DNA of 44,395 nt from a virus: positions 1-44,395 of the IMG/VR virus record IMGVR_UViG_3300031658_000021. The stretch is one strand, 5' to 3'. The notes beneath the pieces are model-generated. The model saw nothing but the letters and a program-made list of their open reading frames with translations. It ran no database searches and had not been told where the DNA came from. Positions 10,466-42,875 of the stretch are shown piece after piece. The stretch's first letter is position 1; every line of letters starts with the position of its first letter. A program made the position numbers and the translations under genes.

Positions 10466-10485
10466 GTAAAGACTATATCTTTACT
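10465..10485. terminator. Bidirectional hairpin between convergent genes
   Basis: AGTAAAG (10465-10471) and CTTTACT (10479-10485) form a perfect 7-bp stem with a 7-base loop, spanning the stop codons of the rightward 9914 gene and the leftward 10473 gene. It is AT-rich and weak, but the position between convergent genes fits a terminator. Confidence 0.4.
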
Positions 10486-10769
10486 GATGAGATTTGAACT
10501 ATCTTACCATCAATCTGTTGGCTTACTTGGTATAAACCTGGCTTAGTTGTTTTTAATCTGAACGTTCTATAGTCACCTATTCTGTCTAAAACCCATCCGT
10601 TACCTTCTTCTAGGCGTTCGTCCTGGATTTCAGGGTAGTGGGGAATGTACAGTACGGTCCATTCTGACTCTATGCCTTCACTGTACATAAGATCGTTAAT
10701 TACAAGTGTTGTTTGAGACAGCAGCGAAGTAGAAGCTATCAAGGCAATTATTAAAAGTAAATTTTTCAT
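10473..10769 (-). CDS. Small secreted beta-sandwich-like protein (98 aa)
   Basis: ATG 10769; residues 1-19 (MKNLLLIIALIASTSLLSQ) are a clear Sec signal peptide with likely cleavage near SLLSQ-TT. The mature ~79 residues are beta-rich (WTVLYIPHYPEIQDERLEEG, then FRLKTTKPGLYQVSQQ), resembling small periplasmic or PKD/Ig-like domains. It is one of two adjacent leftward genes with near-identical signal peptides and an identical 48-base leader, breaking the rightward operon. Possible roles are superinfection exclusion or envelope modification; this is inference. Confidence 0.6.
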   Translation of the reverse strand: MKNLLLIIALIASTSLLSQTTLVINDLMYSEGIESEWTVLYIPHYPEIQDERLEEGNGWVLDRIGDYRTFRLKTTKPGLYQVSQQIDGKIVQISSVKI

Positions 10770-11266
10770 TGTATATAAATTAAAGGTTAAAAATTAAATT
10801 CTGATTATCTAACTACAACTAAGTGGTCAGAACTCCCCGCCACCCATTCAATATCCGATCTTACGAATGTGTTCTCAATCATTACCCCAGGAAGGTATGA
10901 AACGACATAGTCAACGTATTTTTCGTTTATAATAAAGTAAGTATCCTCCCCCATTATATCTCCGTCTTTTGTGCAGGACACGACATACACACCCTCTTCG
11001 GTCCATGTATGTGCTGAGCGGCCACCGTAAGAAGCATAAAACTCAAACTCCTTGTCGAAGTTGATGTCTGGTCTCTCCGCATCCCATGCCTCCCCAGTAG
11101 CTTTCATGTCAAGCACTTTATAGATATGTGTGGAGTCTTGTATAGCTACTCCCCCAGAGTATGTTTCCTGTATACTGATAGAAAGGTCTTGTGCCGAGAC
11201 TCCAGCTACAACGAACGTGGCAATTATTAAAAGTAAATTTTTCATTGTATATAAATTAAAGGTTAA
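10743..11266 (-). repeat. 48-bp duplicated leader and signal-peptide start
   Basis: A 48-base block is identical at 10743-10790 and 11219-11266. It spans the leader (ATTAAAGGTTAA-type) and the first seven to eight codons of both leftward secreted genes. Conservation extends through the non-coding part, so it is a recent duplication or a selected shared expression cassette, not only a protein constraint. Confidence 0.75.
10805..11245 (-). CDS. Small secreted protein, partner of the 98-aa gene (146 aa)
   Basis: ATG 11245; MKNLLLIIATFVVAGVSAQ is a signal peptide with predicted cleavage after VSA. The mature part contains QDLSISIQETYSGGVAIQDS and EFEFYASYGGRSAHTWTEEG, GVYVVSCTKDGDI, a PKD/Ig-like beta-sandwich pattern with one Cys, and ends in a beta strand. 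Shares the leader and first seven residues with the 10473-10769 protein but diverges afterwards. Exported by the host Sec machinery and probably periplasmic or surface-exposed. Function unknown. Confidence 0.6.
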   Translation of the reverse strand: MKNLLLIIATFVVAGVSAQDLSISIQETYSGGVAIQDSTHIYKVLDMKATGEAWDAERPDINFDKEFEFYASYGGRSAHTWTEEGVYVVSCTKDGDIMGEDTYFIINEKYVDYVVSYLPGVMIENTFVRSDIEWVAGSSDHLVVVR

Positions 11267-13993: not shown

Positions 13994-14590
13994 ATGAGGA
14001 CATTTGATCTATTTATCGTTAAGATAAAAAGCAGGCTTAAGGATACTATTACTTCCGAGAGTGGCTTTGAACTATTCGTGGACGCAAAGTTTAATGACTT
14101 CAAGAATAGAACGACAGAAGCCCCCGTGGTATGCGTGCCCTTTAAATATGATACAGGAGTAGAGGTGGGGGACACTTTATACTTTCATCACTTAGTGGTG
14201 CTTGGAGGGGATAATAACGGGCAGATATTTACAGAGGAGGATAACACTTATATAGTAAGCTACGACCCCGAGAGCGCAATTGCCAACCAGGCCATAGCTT
14301 TTAAAAGCAAGAAGACTGGTAAGATACAATGTCTCACGGGTTGGTGCCTATTAAAGGAAGTGGTGCAGGAGGAACTCACCCTTCAGTCCGATATTATAGA
14401 GATCGTAGACTTAACGGAAAAATTACCCACGAAAGCCGAAGTGGTGTATACTTGCAAACAAGCCGACGAGATAGGGGTTAAGCCAGGGGATATAGTTGGA
14501 TTCAAACAAAACAGAGACTATCGTATAACTATAGACGGGACGGAGTATTTCCGCACCCGCGCAGAAGACTTAATGTATGTCGAAATCTAA
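13994..14590 (+). CDS. GroES-like co-chaperonin protein with two candidate domains (198 aa)
   Basis: Residues ~40-75 (VVCVPFKYDTGVEVGDTLYF-HHLVV) and 150-198 (AEVVYTCKQADEIGVKPGDI, GFKQNRDYRITIDGTEYFRT, ending EDLMYVEI) both show the GroES-type 'V-x-GD-x-x-x-F' turn; the C-terminal copy also ends in a characteristic R-x-EDL-x-x-V strand. Known phage co-chaperonins (e.g. gp31 in T4) substitute for GroES in capsid folding. Size (~200 aa) suggests a tandem or elaborated version. It may support capsid protein folding with host GroEL; assigned by pattern only. Confidence 0.55.
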   Translation: MRTFDLFIVKIKSRLKDTITSESGFELFVDAKFNDFKNRTTEAPVVCVPFKYDTGVEVGDTLYFHHLVVLGGDNNGQIFTEEDNTYIVSYDPESAIANQAIAFKSKKTGKIQCLTGWCLLKEVVQEELTLQSDIIEIVDLTEKLPTKAEVVYTCKQADEIGVKPGDIVGFKQNRDYRITIDGTEYFRTRAEDLMYVEI

Positions 14591-14867
14591 ATTTACTACT
14601 ATAGGAGCCTCCAGAAGGCTTATGTCCAGTATGGAGATAGCTATAGAAAACATGATCGAGGAAATTAAAAAACCCGTCGATCCAGAAATCAATGGTTCAG
14701 CACGTAAAGCGGAGCTACAGTCTATTAAGCAAACAGCAACGGACTGTAAGGAGCTTATTATAGAAAGGCAAAGGCTTGGTCAAATGGTTAAAGACCTGGA
14801 GACGAGCGGGGAGATAAGCGGGGAAGCGGATTATTCAGGCGGGTTTGCCGAAAGATTCTCGAAATGA
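14577..14867 (+). CDS. Small helical hypothetical protein (96 aa)
   Basis: ATG 14577 lies in the last codons of the GroES-like gene (14-base overlap). MSKSKFTTIGASRRLMSSME leads into a long helix (IAIENMIEEIKKPVDPEING, then KAELQSIKQTATDCKELIIE) ending in a Gly-rich ADYSGGFAERFSK. Could be a terminase small-subunit-like or scaffolding adaptor, but no motif confirms it. Overlaps the HNH gene by four bases. Confidence 0.5.
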   Translation: MSKSKFTTIGASRRLMSSMEIAIENMIEEIKKPVDPEINGSARKAELQSIKQTATDCKELIIERQRLGQMVKDLETSGEISGEADYSGGFAERFSK

Positions 14868-15334
14868 AGAGGTGTTCCCACTGTCAGAGATTAAAGGATA
14901 ATGAGGAGTTTTACCTCCACTCCGATGGAAAAACTAGATTTAAAGATTGTAGAGAGTGTACCTCTATAAAAACCGTTGAAAGGAAGAAAAAGATATACGC
15001 TTGGGTGGACAAGTATAAGTCCTCCGTTGGGTGCGAGAACTGCGGGGAGACGGACAAGAGATGCTTACAGCTACACCATCGAGACTCCTCCAATAAAAAG
15101 AAAAGCGTTGCTACCCTTATAGGTAAGGGCTATATATTTAGAACTGTGAAGGCTGAAGTAGAAAAATGCGAGGTCCTATGCGCTAATTGTCACTCCATAC
15201 ATCATTACGACGACAGGAGGTCTGGACACTGGGGCGCAGGTAAATATGACTATGACTGCGTAGAAGAGGAGTGTTCCCCTATGGTAGAGCAACTAGAGCT
15301 TTTCCTTAACCACGACTATACGTTAGAAATATAG
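14864..15334 (+). CDS. HNH endonuclease with N-terminal zinc finger (156 aa)
   Basis: Begins MKRCSHCQRLKDNEEFYLHS: CSHC followed by CREC gives a zinc-binding head (residues ~4-33). The catalytic domain is GCENCGETDKRCLQLHHRDS then CEVLCANCHSIHH, i.e. CxxC...LHHRDS...CxxCHxxHH, the zinc-stapled HNH layout with catalytic His in LHH. HNH proteins next to terL often act in packaging or as homing nucleases; its position three genes before TerL favours a packaging role. The C-terminal 45 residues are acidic. Confidence 0.75.
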   Translation: MKRCSHCQRLKDNEEFYLHSDGKTRFKDCRECTSIKTVERKKKIYAWVDKYKSSVGCENCGETDKRCLQLHHRDSSNKKKSVATLIGKGYIFRTVKAEVEKCEVLCANCHSIHHYDDRRSGHWGAGKYDYDCVEEECSPMVEQLELFLNHDYTLEI

Positions 15335-15336
15335 CT

Positions 15337-15344
15337 TACCTTTG
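15337..15344 (+). promoter_or_regulatory. -7 box TACCTTTG four bases before ATG 15349
   Basis: TACCTTTG is followed by CTAT and then ATG, so transcription would start at or within a few bases of the start codon, predicting a leaderless mRNA for the secreted cassette. The TACCTTTGCTATAT string is shared with the strong promoter at 8647. Confidence 0.6.
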
Positions 15345-15348
15345 CTAT

Positions 15349-15717
15349 ATGAAACAACTTACCGTATTACTCCTTTTGACCTTTATGTCATGCACTGTTT
15401 GGGCTCAGTGTAACCAGCACGTCTTTAGCTCTGTAGGGGCTGAAAAATGGACAAACTTCCAATACCAGGATTGTGATGGGGGAGCCCATTACTTTGGGTT
15501 ACCCGCTGGAGGATACACTATAATTTACTGTGCAGACATAGGAACTGCCTTTGTTTTGAATGGTGATGGGTTTGTATACCCTCTCCTTCAGGAGCACCCA
15601 GCCTACGTATCGTGCATACAGGAAGAATCATGCCCAGGAGACCTAGACAATAGCGGGGCTATTGATGTGCAAGACTTACTGTTGTTCCTAGAGAATTACG
15701 GGTTGCCATGCGATTAA
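15349..15717 (+). CDS. Secreted protein with dockerin-like C terminus (122 aa)
   Basis: Residues 1-20 (MKQLTVLLLLTFMSCTVWAQ) form a signal peptide; cleavage near WA-QC is likely, and FMSC is a possible but poor lipobox. The mature body is Cys-rich (QCNQHVFSSVGAEKWTNFQY, QDCDGGAHYFGLPAGG). The last 28 residues, CPGDLDNSGAIDVQDLLLFL-ENYG, are a dockerin/F-hand-type calcium loop (D-x-D-x-S-x-x-x-V-x-DLL) like those ending secreted proteins of marine Flavobacteriia. It overlaps the next gene by 10 bases, so the pair is probably coexpressed and exported together. Confidence 0.7.
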   Translation: MKQLTVLLLLTFMSCTVWAQCNQHVFSSVGAEKWTNFQYQDCDGGAHYFGLPAGGYTIIYCADIGTAFVLNGDGFVYPLLQEHPAYVSCIQEESCPGDLDNSGAIDVQDLLLFLENYGLPCD

Positions 15718-16922
15718 ACCTTTTTACAATACTCTGGCTCCTATATGGATTTTTTATAACTAACAATATTTACGGTCAATGTGATCTAGCTATAAGTAGT
15801 TGGGATGCAGTCTCTGGGGACATAGTTATTGAGGTTATTAATAGTGAAAACTGCGGTTGTAACGAATTTACTTCCGAAGGAAACACTTGTGAAACGAGCA
15901 TAGTCCCTTATGTTAACAACAACACAACGGTGTCTCACATAGTTCTAGGGTTACATGTAGACGGATTAGACTATAACTGGGGGTGCACGGCTGCGACCAA
16001 CCACCCAGGATGGACATGGAAGGTATTTACTCTTTGGGGGAACCAAGAGTTAGAGAGTGGGGATACATGGACCGCCAATGTGTATGACTCCCCCGTAGCT
16101 AGTGATTGCTGGACGGAGATATTAGCTAATGATACTCTATGTACCGAGCTGGTTATATGGCAGATTAACCTATCACGCACGTCTTCTACCGAAGAAGGCG
16201 GATGGGCTGTCAATGGGGGCGGTGAAACTCAGACTCAGAATTACCCTGACGTAGATTTATCTAATAATTTCGCCGTAAATTGTGCTCCTCCATCTTGCGA
16301 CACTGTTTACGTAGACGTTGAGGTTGTCGAATATATATACGAGACGGACACTATAGTAGAATATGTAGATGTTGAATGGATCACAACCGACACACTCTAC
16401 ATAACAGACACTGTAGTGGAATACATAGAGATTATTGAATATATCCATGACACCATTGTTTTGATTGAAACGGACACTATAGTAGAAATTGAGTATACGT
16501 ATGTTACGGATACCATAAGCATAGAGACAGTGGTATACGAATACGTCTATGTCTTCAACACGGACACTATCATAGATCATTACACGGAGTATGAATATAT
16601 AGACTGCAACACGGGTGAACCCTGTATCAACGAGGAGCCAAACCCATGTGATGAAACTTCTATATTTGCCCCTAATGTAGTGACCCCTAACGGTGATGGA
16701 TGGAACGATACGTGGAAAGCTATAGCGGAGGGTGGTTGCTGGGGAACCTGGGAAACGCGCATATATAACAGGTGGGGTAGTCTAGTTTGGATCAGCACAT
16801 CGTCTATGGATGAGTGGGAGGCAGACGTAGCTACGGGTGTTTACGTATACACCATAACAGCCCATAGCTCCATAAACGCCAGCGTCTTTGAGTTCAACGG
16901 GACGATAACTGTGTTATATTAG
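15708..16922 (+). CDS. Type IX secretion cargo with type B (CHU_C-like) C-terminal domain (404 aa)
   Basis: A signal peptide (residues 1-23, cleavage near IYG-QC) is followed by a Cys-containing beta-rich domain to ~residue 195, then an Asp-Thr-rich stretch (~200-300, repeated TDTI/TDTV units such as ETDTIVEYVDVEW) that would be an extended stalk. Residues 318-404 match the gliding-motility-associated/type B T9SS sorting domain: FAPNVVTPNGDGWNDTWKA, then YNRWGSLVW, WEADVATGVYVYTITA and a final beta strand. This domain targets host proteins through the outer membrane of Bacteroidota. Here it lies between phage HNH and terminase genes, in frame and intact, so the phage apparently uses the host system to place a protein on the cell surface. 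Start overlaps the 15349 gene. Confidence 0.8.
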   Translation: MRLNLFTILWLLYGFFITNNIYGQCDLAISSWDAVSGDIVIEVINSENCGCNEFTSEGNTCETSIVPYVNNNTTVSHIVLGLHVDGLDYNWGCTAATNHPGWTWKVFTLWGNQELESGDTWTANVYDSPVASDCWTEILANDTLCTELVIWQINLSRTSSTEEGGWAVNGGGETQTQNYPDVDLSNNFAVNCAPPSCDTVYVDVEVVEYIYETDTIVEYVDVEWITTDTLYITDTVVEYIEIIEYIHDTIVLIETDTIVEIEYTYVTDTISIETVVYEYVYVFNTDTIIDHYTEYEYIDCNTGEPCINEEPNPCDETSIFAPNVVTPNGDGWNDTWKAIAEGGCWGTWETRIYNRWGSLVWISTSSMDEWEADVATGVYVYTITAHSSINASVFEFNGTITVLY

Positions 16923-17184: not shown

Positions 17185-17373
17185 ATGGCTGAGTATAAAT
17201 GTGAATGTAAAGAGGACATCGTAGACGTCCCATCTGCTACAATAAGATACGTAGAGGGTCTAGGCGTGATACACGATGTTAAGTGCGAGGATTGTGGGGA
17301 GTATATGACCCACTCTAACCCGAAGTCAGGAGCCCCTGGATTTAGATCTAACAGGTATGGTCAAACATTTTGA
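17185..17373 (+). CDS. Zinc-ribbon small protein before terminase (62 aa)
   Basis: MAEYKCECKEDIVDVPSATI with VKCEDCGEYMTHSNPKSGAP. The CEC near the start and the CxxC (CEDC) give a potential four-Cys zinc ribbon. Proteins of this type, ending in PKSG-x-P, accompany terminases in related phages. Its stop codon overlaps the terminase TTG start (TTGA), indicating coupling. Confidence 0.55.
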   Translation: MAEYKCECKEDIVDVPSATIRYVEGLGVIHDVKCEDCGEYMTHSNPKSGAPGFRSNRYGQTF

Positions 17374-19490
17374 GTATACTTTTAGATGTTAAGGAATATG
17401 AAGACCCAGCTGTTAAGATTTGCCCCAACGGTACGGAGGGTGAGCTTATCGAACTCGGTGGGTTACTCATTTGCCTTCCAGAAAGGCCGCCTAAGAAAGA
17501 AATTTTCGGACATAAAGAATCAAACTCTATGCAAGTGTGGAGAAGGATACCTATGCCGAAGGAACTGCTTCGTATTCGTTCTATGGATGAGTGGTCAGAA
17601 ATGCCAAGGGAGTTTCGAGAGAGGTTTCGTCCATATATCGAGGAGGAGTTTAGGCGTAGGCGTGAGGGTTTTTGGTTTTATAACAACGGTACAGCTACAT
17701 ATATTACGGGGCGGCACTATATGATGATACAGTGGACCAAAATGGATATTGGTTACCCGTACTTTTTAAACTTCCAAAGAGATATCTTCTTGCACTTAGC
17801 TGCATGTGAAATAGACCCTAGGTGTATAGGCCAGCTATATACTAAGTGTCGCCGTAGCGGATACACAAACATGTGCTCTGCTGTCCTTGTAGATGAAGGA
17901 ACTCAAGTGAAGGATAAACTTATGGGTATACAGTCAAAGACTGGAAAAGATGCCCAGGAAAACATATTTATGAAGAAGGTGGTTTTTATGTTTAGAAACT
18001 ATCCTTTCTTCTTTAAACCCATCCAGGACGGTACAACCAATCCGCGTATGGAGCTGGCTTTTAGGGAGCCATCAAAAAGAATAACCAAGAAGAACAAAAC
18101 CTCTCAGATGGGGGAAGCTTTGAATACGGTTATAAACTGGAAAAATACAACTAACAACGCATATGATGGGGAAAAACTACACCTGTTGTATCTAGATGAA
18201 GCAGGAAAATGGGAAAGACCAACAGATATAAGGGACGCCTGGAGGATTCAGAGGACGTGTTTGATCGTCGGAAGAAAAATCGTGGGGAAGGCAATGGTCG
18301 GAAGCACGGTAAATCCAATGGACAAGGGAGGAAGCCAATACAAGGACCTGTGGAGGGATTCGAGCCCCCTGGAGAGGAACGCGAATGGGAGGACTAGAAC
18401 AGGTTTATATAGATTGTTCATACCAGCCTACGAGTCCCTAGAAGGGTTTTTTGACATACACGGTCATCCTGTTGTACAGGATCCCGACACCGAGGTTATG
18501 GGGGTGGACAAAGAGCCAGTTACTATAGGGGCTAAAACCTACCTAAAGAACGAGAGAGCCGCACTGAAGGATGATGCTTCGGAACTTAACGAGGTTACTA
18601 GGCAGTTCCCTTTTACTGAGGATGAAGCCTTTAGGGATAGTATAGAGGGTAGCTTGTTCAACATAGGGAAGATATACGAGCAAATACAATACAACGATGA
18701 GCTGTTCCCTAACCCTATAGTCAGGGGTAATTTCGTTTGGAAAAACGGAGAGAAGGATACAGAAGTGGCTTTTATGCCAGATCCAGCAGGGAGGTTCAGG
18801 GTTTCGTGGCTCCCTCCAGACGAACTAAGGAATAAAAAAGCTACGGAGCGAGGGAAAAGAGTTCCTCCAAATCCTCTAGTAGGTTGCGGTGGTGTTGACT
18901 CATATGATTTAGACGCTACGGTAGATGGTAGAGGGTCTAAGGGGGCTTTGCATTTATACAACAAGTTCAATATGGAGTACCCTTCTAACACTTTTGTTTT
19001 GGAGTACGCTTCACGTCCGCCCTTAGCTAAGATATTCTACGAGGATGTTTTAATGGCTGCTGTTTTTTATGGTTACCCTATACTTATAGAGAATAATAAA
19101 TACGGGATAGCCCGACATTTTGAAGCTAGAGGTTACGACGGGTATTTAATGAATAGACCAGATCACTTAAAAACACCTAACTCTAAAGTCAACGTAAAAA
19201 CTAAAGGCATACCCTCTAACTCTCAGGATGTTATACAGGCTCACGCTCACGCTATAGAGGCTTACATACACAATCACGTAGGTATGAACAGGGAGACAGG
19301 GCTCTACGGGGCTATGTATTTTAACAAAACTCTGGAGGACTGGATTGGATTTAAGATAGACGACAGAACAAAGTTTGACCTTACTATTAGCGCTGGTTTA
19401 GCCCTTTTAGCCTCTCAGAAATCCCGTCCGAAACCGAGGGCAACCTTCTCGGAAAAGAAATTTTTTAGGAAGTATAATGTCTTGGGATGA
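17370..19490 (+). CDS. terL: Terminase large subunit (TerL), 706 aa
   Basis: The packaging ATPase/nuclease. Residues ~153-163 (LYTKCRRSGYTNM) are a divergent Walker A of the type seen in crAss-like terminases, and LHLLYLDEAGKW (~270-281) is Walker B with catalytic Glu. The C-terminal RNase-H-like nuclease includes GVDSYDLDAT (~510), ENNKYG (~574) and FDLTIS (~668) as metal-binding positions. I accept TTG at 17370 as start since it overlaps the preceding stop and the N terminus contains a credible domain, but an internal ATG at residue 53 is possible. Length agrees with crAss-like TerL (~700). Confidence 0.85.
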   Translation: MSILLDVKEYEDPAVKICPNGTEGELIELGGLLICLPERPPKKEIFGHKESNSMQVWRRIPMPKELLRIRSMDEWSEMPREFRERFRPYIEEEFRRRREGFWFYNNGTATYITGRHYMMIQWTKMDIGYPYFLNFQRDIFLHLAACEIDPRCIGQLYTKCRRSGYTNMCSAVLVDEGTQVKDKLMGIQSKTGKDAQENIFMKKVVFMFRNYPFFFKPIQDGTTNPRMELAFREPSKRITKKNKTSQMGEALNTVINWKNTTNNAYDGEKLHLLYLDEAGKWERPTDIRDAWRIQRTCLIVGRKIVGKAMVGSTVNPMDKGGSQYKDLWRDSSPLERNANGRTRTGLYRLFIPAYESLEGFFDIHGHPVVQDPDTEVMGVDKEPVTIGAKTYLKNERAALKDDASELNEVTRQFPFTEDEAFRDSIEGSLFNIGKIYEQIQYNDELFPNPIVRGNFVWKNGEKDTEVAFMPDPAGRFRVSWLPPDELRNKKATERGKRVPPNPLVGCGGVDSYDLDATVDGRGSKGALHLYNKFNMEYPSNTFVLEYASRPPLAKIFYEDVLMAAVFYGYPILIENNKYGIARHFEARGYDGYLMNRPDHLKTPNSKVNVKTKGIPSNSQDVIQAHAHAIEAYIHNHVGMNRETGLYGAMYFNKTLEDWIGFKIDDRTKFDLTISAGLALLASQKSRPKPRATFSEKKFFRKYNVLG

Positions 19491-34535: not shown

Positions 34536-35402
34536 ATGGCGTATACAGACGTTTCTTCCTTGGGCATGAACTACGTTCCGCTACGTCAAATAGTCGATGA
34601 CTACATAATAACCTTAGACACAGACGATTACGCTAATTCAGCTTCGGACACGGCTATAAGGAATATCTCCCTAAGGGGGATACGTGAGTTTGGATTCGAC
34701 ATTACTTCTCGTATAAAATCATTAAAGCTAGATATAAACTCTGCTAACAACACTGTGGCTCTACCTGATGATTTCGTCGATCTTTTAAAGGTTGGAGTTG
34801 TTGGTGGTGATGGCGTTCTTAGGGTTTTAGGTCAAAACAAGCACTTAAATCAAGCCCAGCGTGTAACTCAAGTTTCTAAAGGATCTTCAGTTTCGGACAC
34901 AACTTCAAAATCGGACAGCGAAAGCGGTCCTTTGGATATTACGGGTAACCTCGTTTTAAATCGTGAGGACAGCAAGACGGCAGCTACTAATTCATCTTCG
35001 GATAGTTATGTATTTGAAAACTACTTCCATGAAGGGGGTAACGGCAGAGTTTACGGACTAGGAGGAGGCTCCTCGCAAGGCGAGTATAGATTAAACCTAG
35101 ATCAGAACAGACTGGAAATGAGTACTGCTAGTGGTCTCAATGAAGTAATAGTAGAGTATGTTTCCGATGAGGCACGCTCTACAAACCCTGTAGTTCACGT
35201 ATATGCCGAAGAGGCCCTGCGTTGCTACATATATTATAAATTATGCGAAAGGAAGTCTACCGTTCCTGCTAATGAGAAATCTAGAGCAAGAGTGGAATAC
35301 TATAACGAGAGAAGAAAAGCTAAAGCAAGGATGAGTAATTTTTCTAAGACGGAGGCTTTAAAGACTATTCGCAAGAACTTTAAGTTATCCCCTAAGTATT
35401 AA
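34536..35402 (+). CDS. Conserved head-tail connector/tail protein B (288 aa)
   Basis: Begins MAYTDVSSLGMNYVPLRQIV and has RNISLRGIREFGFDITSRIK and SLKLDINSANNTVALPDDFV-DL near the start, a Ser-rich middle (SVSDTTSKSDSESGPLDITG), and a conserved C terminus (VHVYAEEALRCYIYYKLCER, ARVEYYNERRKAKARMSNFS, KTEALKTIRKNFKLSPKY). This two-ended conservation is familiar from marine Bacteroidota phage proteins placed between the connector and the giant stabilisation-like gene. Function likely tail/connector assembly. Overlaps the next ATG by one base. Confidence 0.65.
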   Translation: MAYTDVSSLGMNYVPLRQIVDDYIITLDTDDYANSASDTAIRNISLRGIREFGFDITSRIKSLKLDINSANNTVALPDDFVDLLKVGVVGGDGVLRVLGQNKHLNQAQRVTQVSKGSSVSDTTSKSDSESGPLDITGNLVLNREDSKTAATNSSSDSYVFENYFHEGGNGRVYGLGGGSSQGEYRLNLDQNRLEMSTASGLNEVIVEYVSDEARSTNPVVHVYAEEALRCYIYYKLCERKSTVPANEKSRARVEYYNERRKAKARMSNFSKTEALKTIRKNFKLSPKY

Positions 35403-38400
35403 TGGCTATAGATAAAATAAGACCGAGAAAACTAAATGCTACCGCAGACTCAAGGCTGAGAAAAGCCGATGAAATGCAAGATGCTCTTAACTTAGTTTCT
35501 GCTAATGATTTTAGAGCCGAAGGCGATACTACGGAGGGCAACGATGGAACGGGCAATGCAGGCGTTTTAAAGCCCACTAGAGGGACTTTCGAGGTTCCTC
35601 CCTTTGACAGCCTTAGCACGATGATTCCCAAGGTCAACAGCAGCGGCGTAGACATTCATAAAAGAGCCCTCGGTTCAGTCACGGATCACGCACATAACGT
35701 GGTATACTTTTTTGTCTGGTGCTCAGAAGCAATCTACCAGGGAGTATATGCTTATGACCCAACGGGGTATCTCCCGATGAGGATAGATGGTGTGGTTCAG
35801 GTAACAGCTGGGGATGAGACATATAAGAAGGTTTTTGCAAGCGCTTTGTTTAACTTTCCTTCTGACGGATTTATAAAAGCGGACTTAGTTCACGTAAACA
35901 AACCCCTAACCGTATCAACGGAAGGTGAGTTGGATACTGTATACGAAACCCAACCCGTACTGTACTTCACTGATAACACCAACGAACCACGTAAGGTTCA
36001 TGCTTTTAGGGCATTGACGGAGGATTTTACGAATTATGCTCTGGTTGATATTAACGACTTCATAACTGTCTGTCCTAAGACCCCTTTGTTCCCTATTACG
36101 GCTACTTTCGAAAGGGACGATAGCGATTCAACATCGTCTTTTGAGGGTTTGCCAGGATTTCAATTTGCTTACCAGCATATATATAAAGGAGGGGAGGAGA
36201 GCTCTCTTTCTACTTTTTCGGATATAGCAATACCTCAAGCGTATTACCAGCAAGGGTCCTCTAGTTCGGCGGACTTGTATGCAAATAACAGATGTGTACT
36301 TACTATACCTAGCCTCATAGAATATAATGTATTTTCCGACGATGTAACCCCTCAAAAAGTAAGAACAGAAGAGATTGCAGAGGTTAGAATACTAAGGCGT
36401 GTAGGAAATACAGGCACCTGGGCGACCATAGAGGAACTGCCTGTTTCCGAATTAGAAGCCAATGACAACAAGTACAATTTTTACAATAGGTCCATAGCGG
36501 CGGGATTCCCACCACAAATGGCTATAAAACCGTATGACAACGTTCCTCAAAAGGCTGAAGCACAGGCTGTTGTTAGCGATAGATTAATGTACGGGAACTA
36601 TGTTGAGGGGTATAATAACGTAAAAGTAACCGCAAAAGCCTCAGTACAATATCATAAGAGACCTCAGGATTTTAAGGAGCTGGAGATTTACCTCACTCCC
36701 ACTTTGAGGTTTGTTGGATCAGCAGCCTCTGATGTAGGGGATAACGTAGGTGGCCAAATAAATAAGAGAGCGGGGTATCATATAGACACTACTGGATTTC
36801 CATCCACCGTTGAGGTGGGTACTGTTGTTCAAATGGATTTTTCCATAAGACCTAACAGGAACTTCCATATATATAACTCAGACAATAGCTTCCATGGCTC
36901 CCGCCATCTTTCCATTCAGGACGTTCCACAGGATGACGGATCTAATGATGTATTGGGGGGTGCTATTAAGTACCCAGAGGTATACGGCCTAGAGGCTACG
37001 GAAGAGGAAACAAGAGGGAGTGTCTCAACAAATAAGGACATGAATCACATGTTCGGGAAGAACAAAGGGGTGGGTGATGGATTGGGTTTAAAATGGTTTA
37101 CTGTAGCTTCACAGCAGGGAGACATCCTATCGGGCGGCGGCGGTAATTCAGAAGTAGAGGGTGTATTTGGCACCTCCGCAGCGAACCCTTTTATCCTAAG
37201 GGGTAACTCACTGCACTTCTCTGTGAAGCTAGAAGCTAAGAGGACTTTTAGCGGAGCGGCAGCTGTACTAAGAAGGATTCTCACTACGCTCTTAACAAAC
37301 CATTTAACGGATCAGGAGCTTGGTGCGGGCTTATTATGGGACGACTTCCTTACTGCAGCCCCTATAGATGATTTTGGAAGTCAAGAAGACGAAGGGGATC
37401 AGACCCGAGTTAAGGTTTTAGAAGTTAAGAGTAGGTCTTCATATCAGATAAATGAGGGATTAAGCGGTCATAACGCAGGAACTTCATCGGTTGACGCCGT
37501 GGATTCAACATCCCAGATTCCCGTTTCGCACGGGGGGGATGATAGGAAACACTTAATAGTCTCCGTAGGCGACGGATTGATGGTTAATTCTGAAGCTTCG
37601 GATGATGATCTTATTCACTTAAGCCCAATTGGGTACTTTATTGTAAATAGAGCCGATGTAACTTTTGGGTTTTTATCTCAGGATAGCACTTCTAGTGATG
37701 GGTTTTTGGAGTTAGACATTAAATCACTAAACAATATAGATATTCTCTCCGCCGTTCCCTTTATAGATGCCGAGAAATGGAAGGACTCGTGGTACGAATC
37801 CGCATATGATAACAACAACGCACAGGAAGACCCTTACGACGAAGATAGCCCTAACCTAAAGAACAACAACCCTCGGAATTGGGGCCTTAGGGACGCAACG
37901 CTGTGGAGCTTAGACTCCTTAATTGTGGATTCATGGTATTGCTATTCTAGGGATTATATGCAGGGAGCTAGTTTTAGCCCTAAGATTTATACGCCGCAAA
38001 GCTCTGATTTTCCTCGGTATATGAATAATTCCAATGTGGCGGATATTGATGGGAGAACTGGCCTGCTGGCTGGTGATTTAAACCCCAACGTCACGAACAA
38101 CGGACGCGGAAAAAACGTAGCTACATTAAATATAGGGGATCATCAGGATAGGCATTTTGGTGGAGATGAGTCGATTAATCCAATGTACGCAATTAGATGG
38201 AATCCGCTGTTGTTCAAAGCTTTTAAGCAGTCACATCTAATGCCCTACTTCCAGGTTGTTGAAATAGATCAACTCCACGCTTCTCCAGTTAGACCGTCTT
38301 TAGCAAACATGTGGAAGTACGGTAGGCATAGAGTCCTCGGGTTTTTGACGGGTATTGAAAACGATGATATCCTTAACCTTGACCCTAACAGAAACTACAG

Positions 38401-41400
38401 CCTTGTAGACGGGGCTATAGGTCCAGGATCAACAGCAGACGGATCCGAAAACATAAGGAAGGTTTCGGGAGGGGACACGAACTATGCTGTAGGGAGCGTA
38501 ACGGGAGAAATGATATTTACGGGGCGTATTGCTCCTAGGGGGTATTTCAGACCTGAGATGCCTAAGACGGGTAAACGTCAGTCCTCTGGGCTTAGTAATG
38601 TAACGGGGTATGACAACTGGTTCCATCAATACGGACAAGGGGGCGTTCTCCCTTATCTTGGGGGGATAGGTTACCAGAAATACACTGAACCCGATTACGG
38701 TCCATCTGAAATGATCGCTAATCTCACGGGAAGACCTTTTAGTGATAGGTCCGTAGGGTTTATACATAATTGGAATTACTTAGGGCAATACACCGCTGGT
38801 AGTTCAGATGACGACGCAGACGATGATGGTATTACAGACTTAGACGATAGCTCACATTGTACATCCTATGTTAATTTGCATGACGAAGGAACAGGAACCC
38901 TATTTAAAAACCAGCACTCAAGATACTTGGGCGACCCTAGATGGAACGACGATGATGGTAGTAATGAGGACGTGTGGGATATTGTGGATACAGACAACGA
39001 TTTAAAATCGAGCGCTAGAATTCGTGATGCGGAGATTGGGTTGACGGGTAGGGAGTTTGCCATCTTTGGAGGTGGCGATTGGGATGCTGGAGGTAGATCC
39101 TTTAAAACTAGGGCTAATCACGCCTTTGGGATAGTCTATTATGACGAAAGAGGAAGGAGCGGGAAAGTTAACCCTATCACCTTCTCTAGCGTCACACAAG
39201 GGGGTAACGGAAGTATGGATGAATTCATTGAGTCACCTACAGCCTCATTAGGCGTGTATGTAAAAGGGTATAGCCCCTCCGAAAGATCCACTACGTATAA
39301 CGGAAGAGCGAGTGTAACGATAGACTTAGAAGGTGTAACTCCACCAGATTGGGCTCACCACTTTCAAATAGTGTATGGAGGAAACACGACTAAAGGGAGT
39401 TTCATTCAGTACACTACAGGTGGAGCTTTCGTTGCGAGTAAAAACACAAGCGAAGAAGGCGGCGAAGAAGGAGAGGATCCTAACAGCACCAACGTTTATG
39501 TTTCTTTGAATTATTTGCAGGGCAATAAGGACGTTTCTTATGCTGAAGCTTTTGGAGCGGTATCATCCGCAGGTACTAAAAATTTATACATACATAAACC
39601 AGGGGATAAGCTTCGGGTTTTAGCCTATTACAGAAAACCAGACGAGAGGGTTTGGGTAGAAAATATGGAGTTTGATATTACGGGGGTGGAGACAGTGTCT
39701 AATAATCCTAATTCAAACGTATTTAGAAGGGCTTTTGAGCTCAGCGAAGACAGTAACGTTGTAGCTGACTGCAGAGCAGGTCAGTTCCTTGTGTTAAAAA
39801 ACAACGTAAAGGCAGAGGGATTTAACTATTCTAGCGTAAAAGCGGGTGGTAACTCAGACCAAACCACTTCTCACTTATGGAACAACCTTTGCGTAGTGGA
39901 AATTTACTCCCCCGCCAAACAAACGGATGTGGAAGACAGGCTCTTCTACGAAACAGGGGAGGTGTACAGTATTCGAAAAGACCCAGACACAGGGGAACTG
40001 CTTCATCATAACTCCCTAACGGACAGCGAAAGAATTGTTTTAAACAAGGGGGATGTCTGGTTTAAGCCCGTTGCTATGGCGGCGGCTGATTACGGACTAA
40101 GAGCTTATAACGAGGACGGCGATTCGCTTACTTCATACCTAAAGTTCAAAAACCTCATAAGGAAAGGAGTGAAGGACGGGGAAAGCTCCCCACGATTTAA
40201 AAATTATTTTGTGGAGTCTATGACTTTTAACGACAGCTTTGCAGGCAACAACGTGACTTCGAAGGGTAAGCCGAATACGGTAGACAAGGATATTTCCCGA
40301 ACAAGGAAAGGGTCTTCTGTGATATTTTCCGATAAGCAGGATTTTGCAAAACGGAAGCTAAGTTTCCCTTCGTTCAACGGTACCGCCAAAAACTGGAAAG
40401 ATTTGCCAGGGGAGTTTGGAAATATAAACTTCCTCCAAAATAATTACGACTCACTGATTTGCCTTCAGGAAAATAAATCGAGTACAATACCTGTGGAAAG
40501 AAATATTCTTACGGACGCTTCAGGGGGTAACACTCTAATGACGAGCAGTAAGGTCGTAGGGGTTCAAGCATTCTTTGCGGGGGAGTACGGGTGTGACAAC
40601 AACCCTGAAGCAGTGGTTAAAAACGATGCAGCTACATACTTCGCCAGCAAAGCCAAAAGCGAGGTGTATAGGTTGACAAGCCAGGGCGTTCAGGTAATAT
40701 CAAAAGAAGGGATGTCTTCTTATTTCTTTCGAATCTTTGAGGAGGTTAAAAAAGCAAAAGCCGACGGAGAGGGGAAGGTTTATATCCCAGGAGGGTATGA
40801 CCCCCTGAAGGACGAATTTCTTATTACAGTTAGCAACCTAAAATGGATGCACACTAACGGCGCTTTGGCAGTATCTCAGGGAAACTGGGGCGACACGACG
40901 CCTATAATATACGGGTGTATGAATTCTGCGTCAATAAGCTTTAATGAGTTTGCAAACGTGGCTCAAGTTAGTGCGGATGACGATTCGGATCCATGTGTGT
41001 GGCCTCCTCCAGTAGAGGGCTGTATGGACCCGTGTTCCACGACCTGGAATCACAATGCAGAAATTTCAGATCCTAGTGCCTGTGCTTATTTTGATTTATG
41101 CTCCTTTGATTATTTTTCTGAAAGCCCCGATGGGATTGTTACTGCGGAAGATATTGCTTATTGCTACGAAAACGTCCTATATCCATCAGCAGTAGGGATG
41201 GGGGAGTTTGGAACGTCCGCTTGGGAGGGATTAACTCCTTTGCAAATAACTCAATTAGGATGGGAATACGGGTGGATATTACGACAAAGCTCAGTAGTAA
41301 AAAACAGTTTTAACAACCCAACTGGTGGTTCCTTCTGTACCGAAGGTGGTCAATACTATGATATACCGACGACTTACCCACTTGCAGATTTTAACGGAAG

Positions 41401-41704
41401 CGTATGGCAAACAGACATGCCAGTTAATGGGTGGGACTTCTCTGATGCTCAGCACATGATTTGGTTCACCCTTGGCTTTCTACAGCAAATAGAAACAGAG
41501 AACGGAGGTCCCGTAACGTGTAACATATATGGGTGTGCGGATCCAATGAACGATGAGTACAACGCCCTCGCAACCCACCACTGTCACGAAGCTCCAGACG
41601 TATGGACAGCTATACGCGAGTGGCATCTAAACAATCCGTCTCAAGACGTGGAGGATATTCCATGGGAGGAGTGCTCGTGCGGAGACGCGGACGGTCCTAC
41701 TTAA
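35402..41704 (+). CDS. Giant tail/stabilisation-like protein with GC-x-DP modules (2100 aa)
   Basis: MAIDKIRPRKLNATADSRLR-KADEMQDALN is the characteristic start of the long 'stabilisation' proteins of crAss-like phages (RKLN...DSR-L...EM-DALN). The body is a very long series of beta-rich segments with NNPRNWGLRDATLWSLDSLI and other modules; no enzyme motif is seen. The extreme C terminus (residues ~1870-2100) carries two GC-[MA]-DP modules: GCMDPCSTTWNHNAEISDPS-AC at ~1872 and YGCADPMNDEYNALATHHC at ~2043, which resemble the Cys-rich tail repeats of secreted proteins of marine Flavobacteriia. Probably wraps the tail or forms the tail tip; host-like end modules may aid surface binding. Confidence 0.7.
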   Translation: MAIDKIRPRKLNATADSRLRKADEMQDALNLVSANDFRAEGDTTEGNDGTGNAGVLKPTRGTFEVPPFDSLSTMIPKVNSSGVDIHKRALGSVTDHAHNVVYFFVWCSEAIYQGVYAYDPTGYLPMRIDGVVQVTAGDETYKKVFASALFNFPSDGFIKADLVHVNKPLTVSTEGELDTVYETQPVLYFTDNTNEPRKVHAFRALTEDFTNYALVDINDFITVCPKTPLFPITATFERDDSDSTSSFEGLPGFQFAYQHIYKGGEESSLSTFSDIAIPQAYYQQGSSSSADLYANNRCVLTIPSLIEYNVFSDDVTPQKVRTEEIAEVRILRRVGNTGTWATIEELPVSELEANDNKYNFYNRSIAAGFPPQMAIKPYDNVPQKAEAQAVVSDRLMYGNYVEGYNNVKVTAKASVQYHKRPQDFKELEIYLTPTLRFVGSAASDVGDNVGGQINKRAGYHIDTTGFPSTVEVGTVVQMDFSIRPNRNFHIYNSDNSFHGSRHLSIQDVPQDDGSNDVLGGAIKYPEVYGLEATEEETRGSVSTNKDMNHMFGKNKGVGDGLGLKWFTVASQQGDILSGGGGNSEVEGVFGTSAANPFILRGNSLHFSVKLEAKRTFSGAAAVLRRILTTLLTNHLTDQELGAGLLWDDFLTAAPIDDFGSQEDEGDQTRVKVLEVKSRSSYQINEGLSGHNAGTSSVDAVDSTSQIPVSHGGDDRKHLIVSVGDGLMVNSEASDDDLIHLSPIGYFIVNRADVTFGFLSQDSTSSDGFLELDIKSLNNIDILSAVPFIDAEKWKDSWYESAYDNNNAQEDPYDEDSPNLKNNNPRNWGLRDATLWSLDSLIVDSWYCYSRDYMQGASFSPKIYTPQSSDFPRYMNNSNVADIDGRTGLLAGDLNPNVTNNGRGKNVATLNIGDHQDRHFGGDESINPMYAIRWNPLLFKAFKQSHLMPYFQVVEIDQLHASPVRPSLANMWKYGRHRVLGFLTGIENDDILNLDPNRNYSLVDGAIGPGSTADGSENIRKVSGGDTNYAVGSVTGEMIFTGRIAPRGYFRPEMPKTGKRQSSGLSNVTGYDNWFHQYGQGGVLPYLGGIGYQKYTEPDYGPSEMIANLTGRPFSDRSVGFIHNWNYLGQYTAGSSDDDADDDGITDLDDSSHCTSYVNLHDEGTGTLFKNQHSRYLGDPRWNDDDGSNEDVWDIVDTDNDLKSSARIRDAEIGLTGREFAIFGGGDWDAGGRSFKTRANHAFGIVYYDERGRSGKVNPITFSSVTQGGNGSMDEFIESPTASLGVYVKGYSPSERSTTYNGRASVTIDLEGVTPPDWAHHFQIVYGGNTTKGSFIQYTTGGAFVASKNTSEEGGEEGEDPNSTNVYVSLNYLQGNKDVSYAEAFGAVSSAGTKNLYIHKPGDKLRVLAYYRKPDERVWVENMEFDITGVETVSNNPNSNVFRRAFELSEDSNVVADCRAGQFLVLKNNVKAEGFNYSSVKAGGNSDQTTSHLWNNLCVVEIYSPAKQTDVEDRLFYETGEVYSIRKDPDTGELLHHNSLTDSERIVLNKGDVWFKPVAMAAADYGLRAYNEDGDSLTSYLKFKNLIRKGVKDGESSPRFKNYFVESMTFNDSFAGNNVTSKGKPNTVDKDISRTRKGSSVIFSDKQDFAKRKLSFPSFNGTAKNWKDLPGEFGNINFLQNNYDSLICLQENKSSTIPVERNILTDASGGNTLMTSSKVVGVQAFFAGEYGCDNNPEAVVKNDAATYFASKAKSEVYRLTSQGVQVISKEGMSSYFFRIFEEVKKAKADGEGKVYIPGGYDPLKDEFLITVSNLKWMHTNGALAVSQGNWGDTTPIIYGCMNSASISFNEFANVAQVSADDDSDPCVWPPPVEGCMDPCSTTWNHNAEISDPSACAYFDLCSFDYFSESPDGIVTAEDIAYCYENVLYPSAVGMGEFGTSAWEGLTPLQITQLGWEYGWILRQSSVVKNSFNNPTGGSFCTEGGQYYDIPTTYPLADFNGSVWQTDMPVNGWDFSDAQHMIWFTLGFLQQIETENGGPVTCNIYGCADPMNDEYNALATHHCHEAPDVWTAIREWHLNNPSQDVEDIPWEECSCGDADGPT

Positions 41705-41714
41705 TTAAAAAGAC

Positions 41715-42875
41715 ATGAATAAGGGAAAAACTATAGCATTCGACAATACGGGTAAGGTCTGGAAGACTAGATACAGTTTTGTACCTACTCGATACGCCTA
41801 TTTGGATAAGAAACTGCTTTCGTGTCAAGGGTACAGAGGGGAAGCATATGACAACTCAGCCCTTGTGTGGAGACACGATGATAAGCACGAAGGTATAAAT
41901 AAATTCTACGGGGAGCAGTTTAGGTCTTCATTAAAATCCTCCTTCAATAAGGACTTATCAGCAAATAAGCTATACAAGAGTCTTTCGCTAGAGGGTACCT
42001 CAAATTTAAAAGGAGGAATAAACCGCTTCTTAGCAAACAGTACAACACAGAAATCCCAACTAAGGGACGCTTCAGTAGGTAAGCTAAAAGAGAAGGGGGG
42101 TATACTCTATGCTGACTTAGGTCGTGGAGCCCAAAACTCAAGCAGCAATGCAGGAATGATTGGAACCCTAAAAGGAGCAACTGCCTTGTTTTCTGATCCT
42201 AGTGAGGCGGACAAATACGGGTACTCATATGATCCAAATCTTATTAAGTTAGATGTTGATTTCCTATCGCCTAACTTCACTTCTTCTAGTGAATTCAAGA
42301 TATTAATAGGTCTTGACATCCCAGGAAGGACTACTCTCCAAGGGGTGTTAGCTCAGGTGGGTGTAAAATCCTATGAAGAAATTTCCTCCGAGCTTATTTC
42401 GGCTGGAGGTATGGCTAAAGGGAAAGATTTTTTAATTCTTAGAGGAATTGCTGGTACACCCAACAATCAAAGCACTGACATAAATGGAAACGGCATAGTA
42501 GATGTTAATGATTTAATACAACTATTAGCCCAGTTTAGCAATTTTGCTGAGGGTTTGACTGCGGACTTTAACGTAGATGGAACAGTTTCAACGATGGATT
42601 TGCTACAGTTGCTTTCGGCTTTTGGCGGTCCAGGAGACGGAACGGGAGGAACGGAAGGAACCGTAGCTATAATAAACACTATTATAAATTCAGCGGCTAC
42701 GAGTGGGGAGACCCCGTTTGCTTTTATCGTAACCCCAAATAAAATTAATGGAAGAGACCCTAAAGGTCAGTACGCGGATCTTTTTTTAAACTTAGGTGTG
42801 TGGGGATCGGAAGATTTCGAGTTGGATGTGTTAAATTTGAACTACGAACACACTAGGCTTGACCATAGTAGTTAA
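41715..42875 (+). CDS. Putative virion protein with two dockerin-like calcium loops (386 aa)
   Basis: The N-terminal third includes KTRYSFVPTRYAYLDKKLLS and GVQ-type beta strands and Ser/Asn-rich parts. Residues ~254-310 carry two dockerin/F-hand loops: DINGNGIVDVNDLIQLLAQF and DFNVDGTVSTMDLLQLLSAF (each with D-x-N-x-[DN]-G-x-[IV]-x-x-x-DL-x-QLL), an intact type I dockerin-like duplication. The C terminus has IVTPNKINGRDPKGQYADLF. Located right after the giant tail protein, so probably a tail or fibre component. Duplicated dockerin loops bind calcium and can lock a partner domain. Confidence 0.6.
   Translation: MNKGKTIAFDNTGKVWKTRYSFVPTRYAYLDKKLLSCQGYRGEAYDNSALVWRHDDKHEGINKFYGEQFRSSLKSSFNKDLSANKLYKSLSLEGTSNLKGGINRFLANSTTQKSQLRDASVGKLKEKGGILYADLGRGAQNSSSNAGMIGTLKGATALFSDPSEADKYGYSYDPNLIKLDVDFLSPNFTSSSEFKILIGLDIPGRTTLQGVLAQVGVKSYEEISSELISAGGMAKGKDFLILRGIAGTPNNQSTDINGNGIVDVNDLIQLLAQFSNFAEGLTADFNVDGTVSTMDLLQLLSAFGGPGDGTGGTEGTVAIINTIINSAATSGETPFAFIVTPNKINGRDPKGQYADLFLNLGVWGSEDFELDVLNLNYEHTRLDHSS

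Follow-up and report, generated by a model that had tools for sequence, protein, structure and literature searches.

The 44,395-nt stretch of DNA from a marine bacterial virus analysed here, hereafter the window (IMG/VR record IMGVR_UViG_3300031658_000021), encodes a terminase, a portal and crAss-like muzzle and structural genes, and its terminase is distantly related to those of cultured Flavobacterium, Cellulophaga and Maribacter phages. Two genes for putatively secreted proteins, dock122 and T9B, together referred to as the cassette, lie upstream of the terminase gene (Table 1), with the 3' end of dock122 overlapping the start of T9B by 10 nt and the next small open reading frame (ORF) starting 5 nt past T9B. 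The initial annotation of this DNA had described T9B as an intact ORF of 404 aa, and its coordinates, plus-strand orientation, length and integrity were all confirmed. T9B does lie between an HNH gene and the terminase, as had been stated, but not directly, since dock122 is found on the HNH side and ORFs of 83 and 62 aa precede the terminase on the other. In the window and in seven relatives alike, a TAnnTTTG box was spaced exactly 12 nt from the dock122 ATG (expectation, 0.03 per 60 nt), and a clear -33 element was absent near it; the box is suggestive only of a possible promoter of dock122's own, from which the transcript would be almost leaderless. A Cpn10-like protein (13994-14590) is encoded before the terminase, as in the cultured Flavobacterium, Cellulophaga and Maribacter phages, with the cassette between both genes. 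Elsewhere in the window, two adjacent minus-strand genes (10473-10769 and 10805-11245) encode small candidate secreted proteins of no known family that have near-identical signal peptides (MKNLLLIIA...).

Table 1. Positions of the cassette, its parts and its flanking features in the window
Feature	Position	Strand	Basis or remark
HNH endonuclease gene	14864..15334	+	PHROG 2255, E 7.5e-25
TAnnTTTG box TACCTTTG, match to Bacteroidota -7 promoter consensus	15337..15344	+	12 nt 5' of dock122 ATG
dock122, secreted 122-aa partner with Cys-rich core and one dockerin/EF-hand-like motif	15349..15717	+	Own signal peptide
T9B, 404-aa type B cargo of the type IX secretion system (T9SS)	15708..16922	+	ATG start, undamaged ORF; signal peptide, head, stalk and C-terminal domain (CTD)
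T9B Sec signal peptide, residues 1-23	15708..15776	+	Predicted cleavage before Gln24; sequence and hydropathy
T9B head domain, residues 24-195, Cys/Asn/Trp-rich	15777..16292	+	Alignment; nearly virus-only
T9B stalk, residues 196-308, acidic, TDT-rich	16293..16631	+	Repeat composition; low pLDDT
T9B type B T9SS C-terminal sorting domain, residues 313-404	16644..16919	+	CHU_C match 321-387; fold match
Terminase large subunit gene, marker of late packaging operon	17370..19490	+	phrog_6681, E 9.3e-201

The Sec signal peptide of T9B predicted by inspection, MRLNLFTILWLLYGFFITNNIYG, is followed by QC after the cut, a Bacteroidota-style Q at +1, and consists of an n-region and a strong hydrophobic core (2.1 KD/12 aa by hydropathy); both the core and the cut site before Q24 agree with the signal peptide proposed earlier. 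The head (~170 aa) showed invariant Cys and Trp positions in an alignment of 20 diverse members, and a profile search of solved structures returned no match for it. Within residues 196-300 the stalk has 27 acidic and 0 basic residues and 8 occurrences of DT, whereas 10,000 shuffles averaged 2.1 and never exceeded 7; both the repeats and the charge are far from random, and the description of the stalk as TDT-rich was borne out. Among relatives the stalk varied in length and ended in a conserved YIDCxTGxxC, and it was unstructured in the AlphaFold model (pLDDT <50 over most of it).

The motifs quoted in the initial annotation for a type B sorting domain were present. In the profile comparison that had been proposed for this domain, CHU_C (PF13585) matched residues 321-387 of 404 well above its cut-off (E 8.8e-14; 51.8 bits versus 27), whereas the type B model TIGR04131 scored 30.2 bits on the whole protein and 34.3 bits (E 2e-8) on the domain alone, narrowly short of its stricter cut-off of 35. 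A six-frame CHU_C search of the window recovered the T9B domain at E 5.5e-16, TIGR04131 was matched by 20/20 T9B-family CTDs at E < 1e-3, and phmmer gave no useful match for the T9B CTD. The CTD was modelled confidently by AlphaFold (pLDDT ~88) with an Ig-like CTD fold, and the closest solved structure was the NucA CTD bound to the SprA translocon (8glk_D; Z 9.0, rmsd 1.8 Å, 72 residues). Translocon-bound T9SS CTDs (8glk, 8glj, 8gl6 and 8gl8) as well as the CTDs of FspA, RemA, RemZ, mirolase and RgpB were among the structural matches of the model, in a comparison that was dominated by the CTD and to which the head contributed little. The fold by itself is no proof of a T9SS signal, because Ig-like proteins unrelated to T9SS reach Z 8 to 8.8 against the same model; it is the profile matches and the predicted fold combined that prove the CTD, at the level of prediction, to be a T9SS signal, and they support the earlier reading of T9B as a phage-encoded, intact type B cargo.

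Relatives of T9B were found at 79 viral loci, the cassette records being metagenomic, and the survey of phages suggested at the outset showed T9B to be conserved in many other phage contigs. A signal-like N-terminus and a type B CTD were kept in 49/49 of the distinct full-length relatives retained. Whole-gene dN/dS was ~0.04-0.21 in 12 comparable pairs, with values for the separate parts mostly <0.25; T9B, head and stalk included, is under purifying selection.

A search with dock122 only retrieved 54 viral loci, and a T9B relative adjoined it in all of them (54/54). The two ORFs overlapped or abutted in most of these loci, their order was reversed in some, and a few had an insert, such as a fibre-like DUF285 protein or a DUF5675 protein. 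The dock122 tail matched dockerin 2y3n_B (E 1.7e-4) over one calcium-loop motif, and in this motif lies its likeness to type I dockerins, which is one of working only: no Pfam dockerin match was obtained in 23 dock122 members, no cohesin is known for dock122, and its identification as a type I dockerin was rejected on account of a single repeat in place of two tandem calcium-binding F-hand repeats. Identification as a lipoprotein or spanin was rejected for lack of a lipobox, and the structure model was poor (pLDDT 60) with no usable fold. Phage L040 has, in place of dock122, a gene for a secreted M43 protease that shares its dockerin-like tail; L075 likewise has an M43 gene upstream of T9B, and L070-L072 encode fusions of an M43 domain to the N-terminal side of a T9B-type head. 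Given these M43 variants, which replace dock122, precede T9B or are fused to a T9B-type head, dock122 looks like a slot in which partners or effectors can be exchanged. The M43 (pappalysin-type) metalloproteases on these phage contigs (L040:6692-8005, L075:5674-7674 and L070:1035-3887) comprise two that combine a dockerin-like motif with a type A-like tail and a third that is joined to a T9B-like head plus type B CTD.

In window-like relatives free of the cassette, the site between the Cpn10-like/p96/HNH and p83/p62/terminase genes was empty, and several cassette-free relatives had the HNH gene at this very junction. The cassette occurred with three terminase types, the window's having no detectable similarity to the other two and those two matching each other at ~30%; a Terminase_6C search gave no match in any record. 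Cassette identity does not track terminase identity: L040, which has another terminase type, encodes a T9B head 71% identical to that of the window; L049 and L063 have terminases that are 30% similar, yet their T9B proteins are 69% identical over the full length; and L049 differs in T9B from L052 and its group, with which it shares terminases that are 99% identical. Swapping within T9B ran in two directions, in that some relatives kept the head of the window at 77-83% identity and had a different CTD at 38-48% (e.g., head 83%, CTD 46%), and others kept the CTD at 77-78% and had a different head at 29-34% (e.g., head 29%, CTD 77%). Because of these swaps and the low dN/dS, all parts of T9B appear to be functional and to recombine as modules.

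The cassette is located in an operon with packaging genes and recurs across independent phage contigs, as evidence of its phage origin. Among 84,980 species genomes the T9B head had one relative, on a phage contig misbinned into a bacterial metagenome-assembled genome (MAG), in a scan with two exact conserved peptide patterns that distant bacterial homologues could escape. As far as tested, and within the scope of this pattern scan, the head appears to be virus-restricted. Within the reach of these two patterns, a bacterial origin of the head was rejected, the contig of its sole relative carrying phage terminase, portal and structural genes. That contig (L131, WLWP01000006.1) is a Bacteroidota-type phage contig within a MAG labelled Pseudomonadales, which is a binning error; a SprA_N search of this MAG gave no match, with the controls equally silent.

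For comparison, 45 records were picked by terminase alone (77-88% identity). CHU_C was present in only 4/45 of them, and its standing as core to the phage lineage of the window was rejected. All of the records >50 kb in this set (7/7) encoded at least one T9SS signal of type A or type B, sub-threshold in one of them. Type A Por_Secre_tail proteins, mostly ~700-830 aa, were frequent among the 45, and those inspected had both a type A tail and a signal peptide; window-like phages without the cassette mostly had a type A T9SS cargo elsewhere, and one of the type B-bearing records >50 kb tested had type A too. From these predicted signals, T9SS use looks common in the phage group of the window. 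Beyond the cargo itself, which it had recognized, the initial annotation had missed the partner gene, the module swaps, the spread among unrelated phages and these type A cargos of relatives. Four type A cargos of close relatives of the window's phage, each with a signal peptide (L210:15155-17608, L211:15157-17658, L217:13274-15502 and L229:17797-20031; 740-830 aa) contain GCTDPxAxNYN repeats and are located within the structural gene block. In the window, the tail/muzzle-region protein at 41715-42875 and the C-terminus of that at 35402-41704 have two dockerin-like repeats and GCMDP-type repeats as in secreted T9SS cargos, and because of this resemblance the same modules may be in use in virions and in secreted proteins. 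Type B CTDs are encoded on at least 507 viral stretches, some of which may be host fragments, and type B-like CTDs were observed in two huge uncultured phages of ~640 kb (LR756502.1:519109-519384 and LR745206.1:27673-27960). CHU_C and Por_Secre_tail were absent from the cultured relatives (Flavobacterium elemo, Cellulophaga and Maribacter phages), and the module is therefore dispensable for such phages.

Type B cargos of F. johnsoniae require specific PorP/SprF shuttles and stay surface-anchored, and the shuttles are scarce and consumed one-to-one with cargo (PMC12618676, PMC9143113, PMC12635249). Because the ORFs 3' of T9B (83 and 62 aa) are below the size of such a shuttle and PorP_SprF had no match in 20 phage records (a search in which the positive control gave none either), T9B looks like an orphan cargo needing a host shuttle. 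Since CTD sequence sets the choice of shuttle, the CTD swaps under a constant head resemble retargeting to other hosts, and the shuttle dependence and surface anchoring of type B cargos favour display on the infected cell. We consider it likely that 15349-16922 is a mobile two-gene phage accessory cassette whose T9B product is exported by the host T9SS, anchored through a shuttle and involved in remodelling the infected-cell surface. We strongly infer delivery of T9B to that surface, and we infer its export, use of a host shuttle and anchoring. Both T9B and dock122 would reach the periplasm by Sec; the type B CTD would then take T9B through the host T9SS translocon, and T9B would borrow a host PorP/SprF-like shuttle and remain anchored on the infected cell, with the ~110-residue stalk holding the virus-specific head away from the surface. 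dock122 would act with T9B as a ligand, co-exported subunit or interchangeable effector, a role that a secreted M43 metalloprotease, separate or fused to T9B, may fill in some phages. The net effect would be that receptors are blocked or removed, limiting superinfection and progeny re-adsorption, and/or that host adhesins are displaced through exhaustion of the scarce shuttle; any benefit that the phage derives from surface remodelling by T9B and dock122, including the superinfection block and the influence on aggregation put forward in the initial annotation, is a guess. More tentatively, and with slightly less than an even chance of being right, the cassette may represent a mobile virus-specific two-component surface-display system among unrelated Bacteroidota phages, in which head and partner act at the surface and the type B signal is exchanged to suit host shuttles.

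The limiting supply and one-to-one use of type B shuttles (PMC12618676) would also fit a decoy, in which the CTD of a late-made cargo soaks up the scarce PorP/SprF shuttle and keeps host adhesins, as possible receptors, off the surface, and the head and stalk are filler. Retargeting of such a decoy to other shuttles predicts the observed swapping of CTD type beneath a constant head, but purifying selection acts on the head and stalk too, the head has invariant Cys/Trp positions in 20 diverse members, and a fixed partner gene would be senseless for a pure decoy; we regard this explanation as unlikely. A role in lysis or release, with the late-exported pair weakening the outer membrane or freeing progeny from debris as a functional spanin stand-in, seems no more probable. 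The genes are an overlapping secreted pair within the late region, a DUF5675 gene lies between T9B and dock122 in several phages, a carboxypeptidase-type lysin gene occupies the comparable region of the cultured elemo phages, and M43 protease variants exist; however, neither a lipobox nor a transmembrane helix occurs in the pair, the predicted location of T9B is outside the cell with no bridging of the envelope, a lysin role of DUF5675 is unproven, and the pair is missing from near relatives. It is less probable still that the Ig-like CTD is structural and T9B a never-exported fibre or decoration protein of the virion, given that every full-length relative, those of different-terminase phages included, has a signal peptide and a type B CTD and that the solved structure matched best is a T9SS signal bound to the translocon, even though the stalk is reminiscent of a fibre shaft, some relatives have a fibre-like DUF285 protein encoded between T9B and dock122, and the tail-region protein of the window (41715-42875) likewise has dockerin-like repeats. 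A misassembled or captured host gene, carried as a neutral passenger with no phage function, is very improbable, because, despite the likeness of the CTD, and of the GCTDP-type repeats in related cargos, to Bacteroidota cargo and the possible presence of host fragments in IMG/VR, T9B is in an operon with the terminase in many contigs, CHU_C occurs once per virus record even in records of 160-200 kb, the head is nearly absent from genomes, and purifying selection on T9B is strong.

As a probable surface-anchored cargo, T9B can be compared with the three type A T9SS cargos of Cryophage, for which superinfection exclusion was suggested (Bellas et al. 2020, PMC7468147). These are likewise phage genes with T9SS C-terminal signals, they vary between Cryophage variants, and a change of host surface was suggested for them as well (PMC7468147); however, their signals are of type A and belong to enzymes (endoglucanase, GH39, PA14), and they were reported as unique to one phage (PMC7468147), unlike T9B, which has a type B signal, a conserved virus-specific head and a fixed partner and is present in several unrelated phage lineages. 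The F. johnsoniae type B cargos (SprB, Fjoh_3952 and Fjoh_1123/1720/4934) share with T9B a Sec signal and a C-terminal type B CTD, and the orphans Fjoh_1123/1720/4934 also have no adjacent sprF-like gene, whereas T9B is phage-encoded and short, with a virus-specific head. BFVD contains automatic 'gliding motility-associated' annotations on viral proteins, and A0A7S9STS8 of virus NIOZ-UU157, annotated only automatically as a 'gliding motility-associated C-terminal domain-containing protein', is a full-length T9B relative (38% identity, Foldseek E 6e-28) that is undiscussed in those passages of the literature found that name the virus. The literature searched, to which preprints and most subscription papers did not belong, contained no phage type B cargo study besides the type A work of Bellas et al. 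(2020); the phage-T9SS interaction can still be called little described, as had been claimed, but the idea itself is not wholly without precedent (PMC7468147). The type B class, obligate partner, cross-lineage spread and two-way swapping were not found described earlier in that literature.

If the cassette works as proposed, marine Bacteroidota phages would regularly dress the infected cell by way of the T9SS, a machine for secretion and gliding that is particular to their hosts. The cassette would then offer a named gene pair and swaps from which host-shuttle specificity could be predicted, which makes this virus-host interaction testable, and the virus-restricted T9B head could flag T9SS-positive hosts of uncultured phages. 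Together with the type A cargos of relatives, this would, if true, mean that an entire phage lineage routinely hijacks the T9SS during infection.
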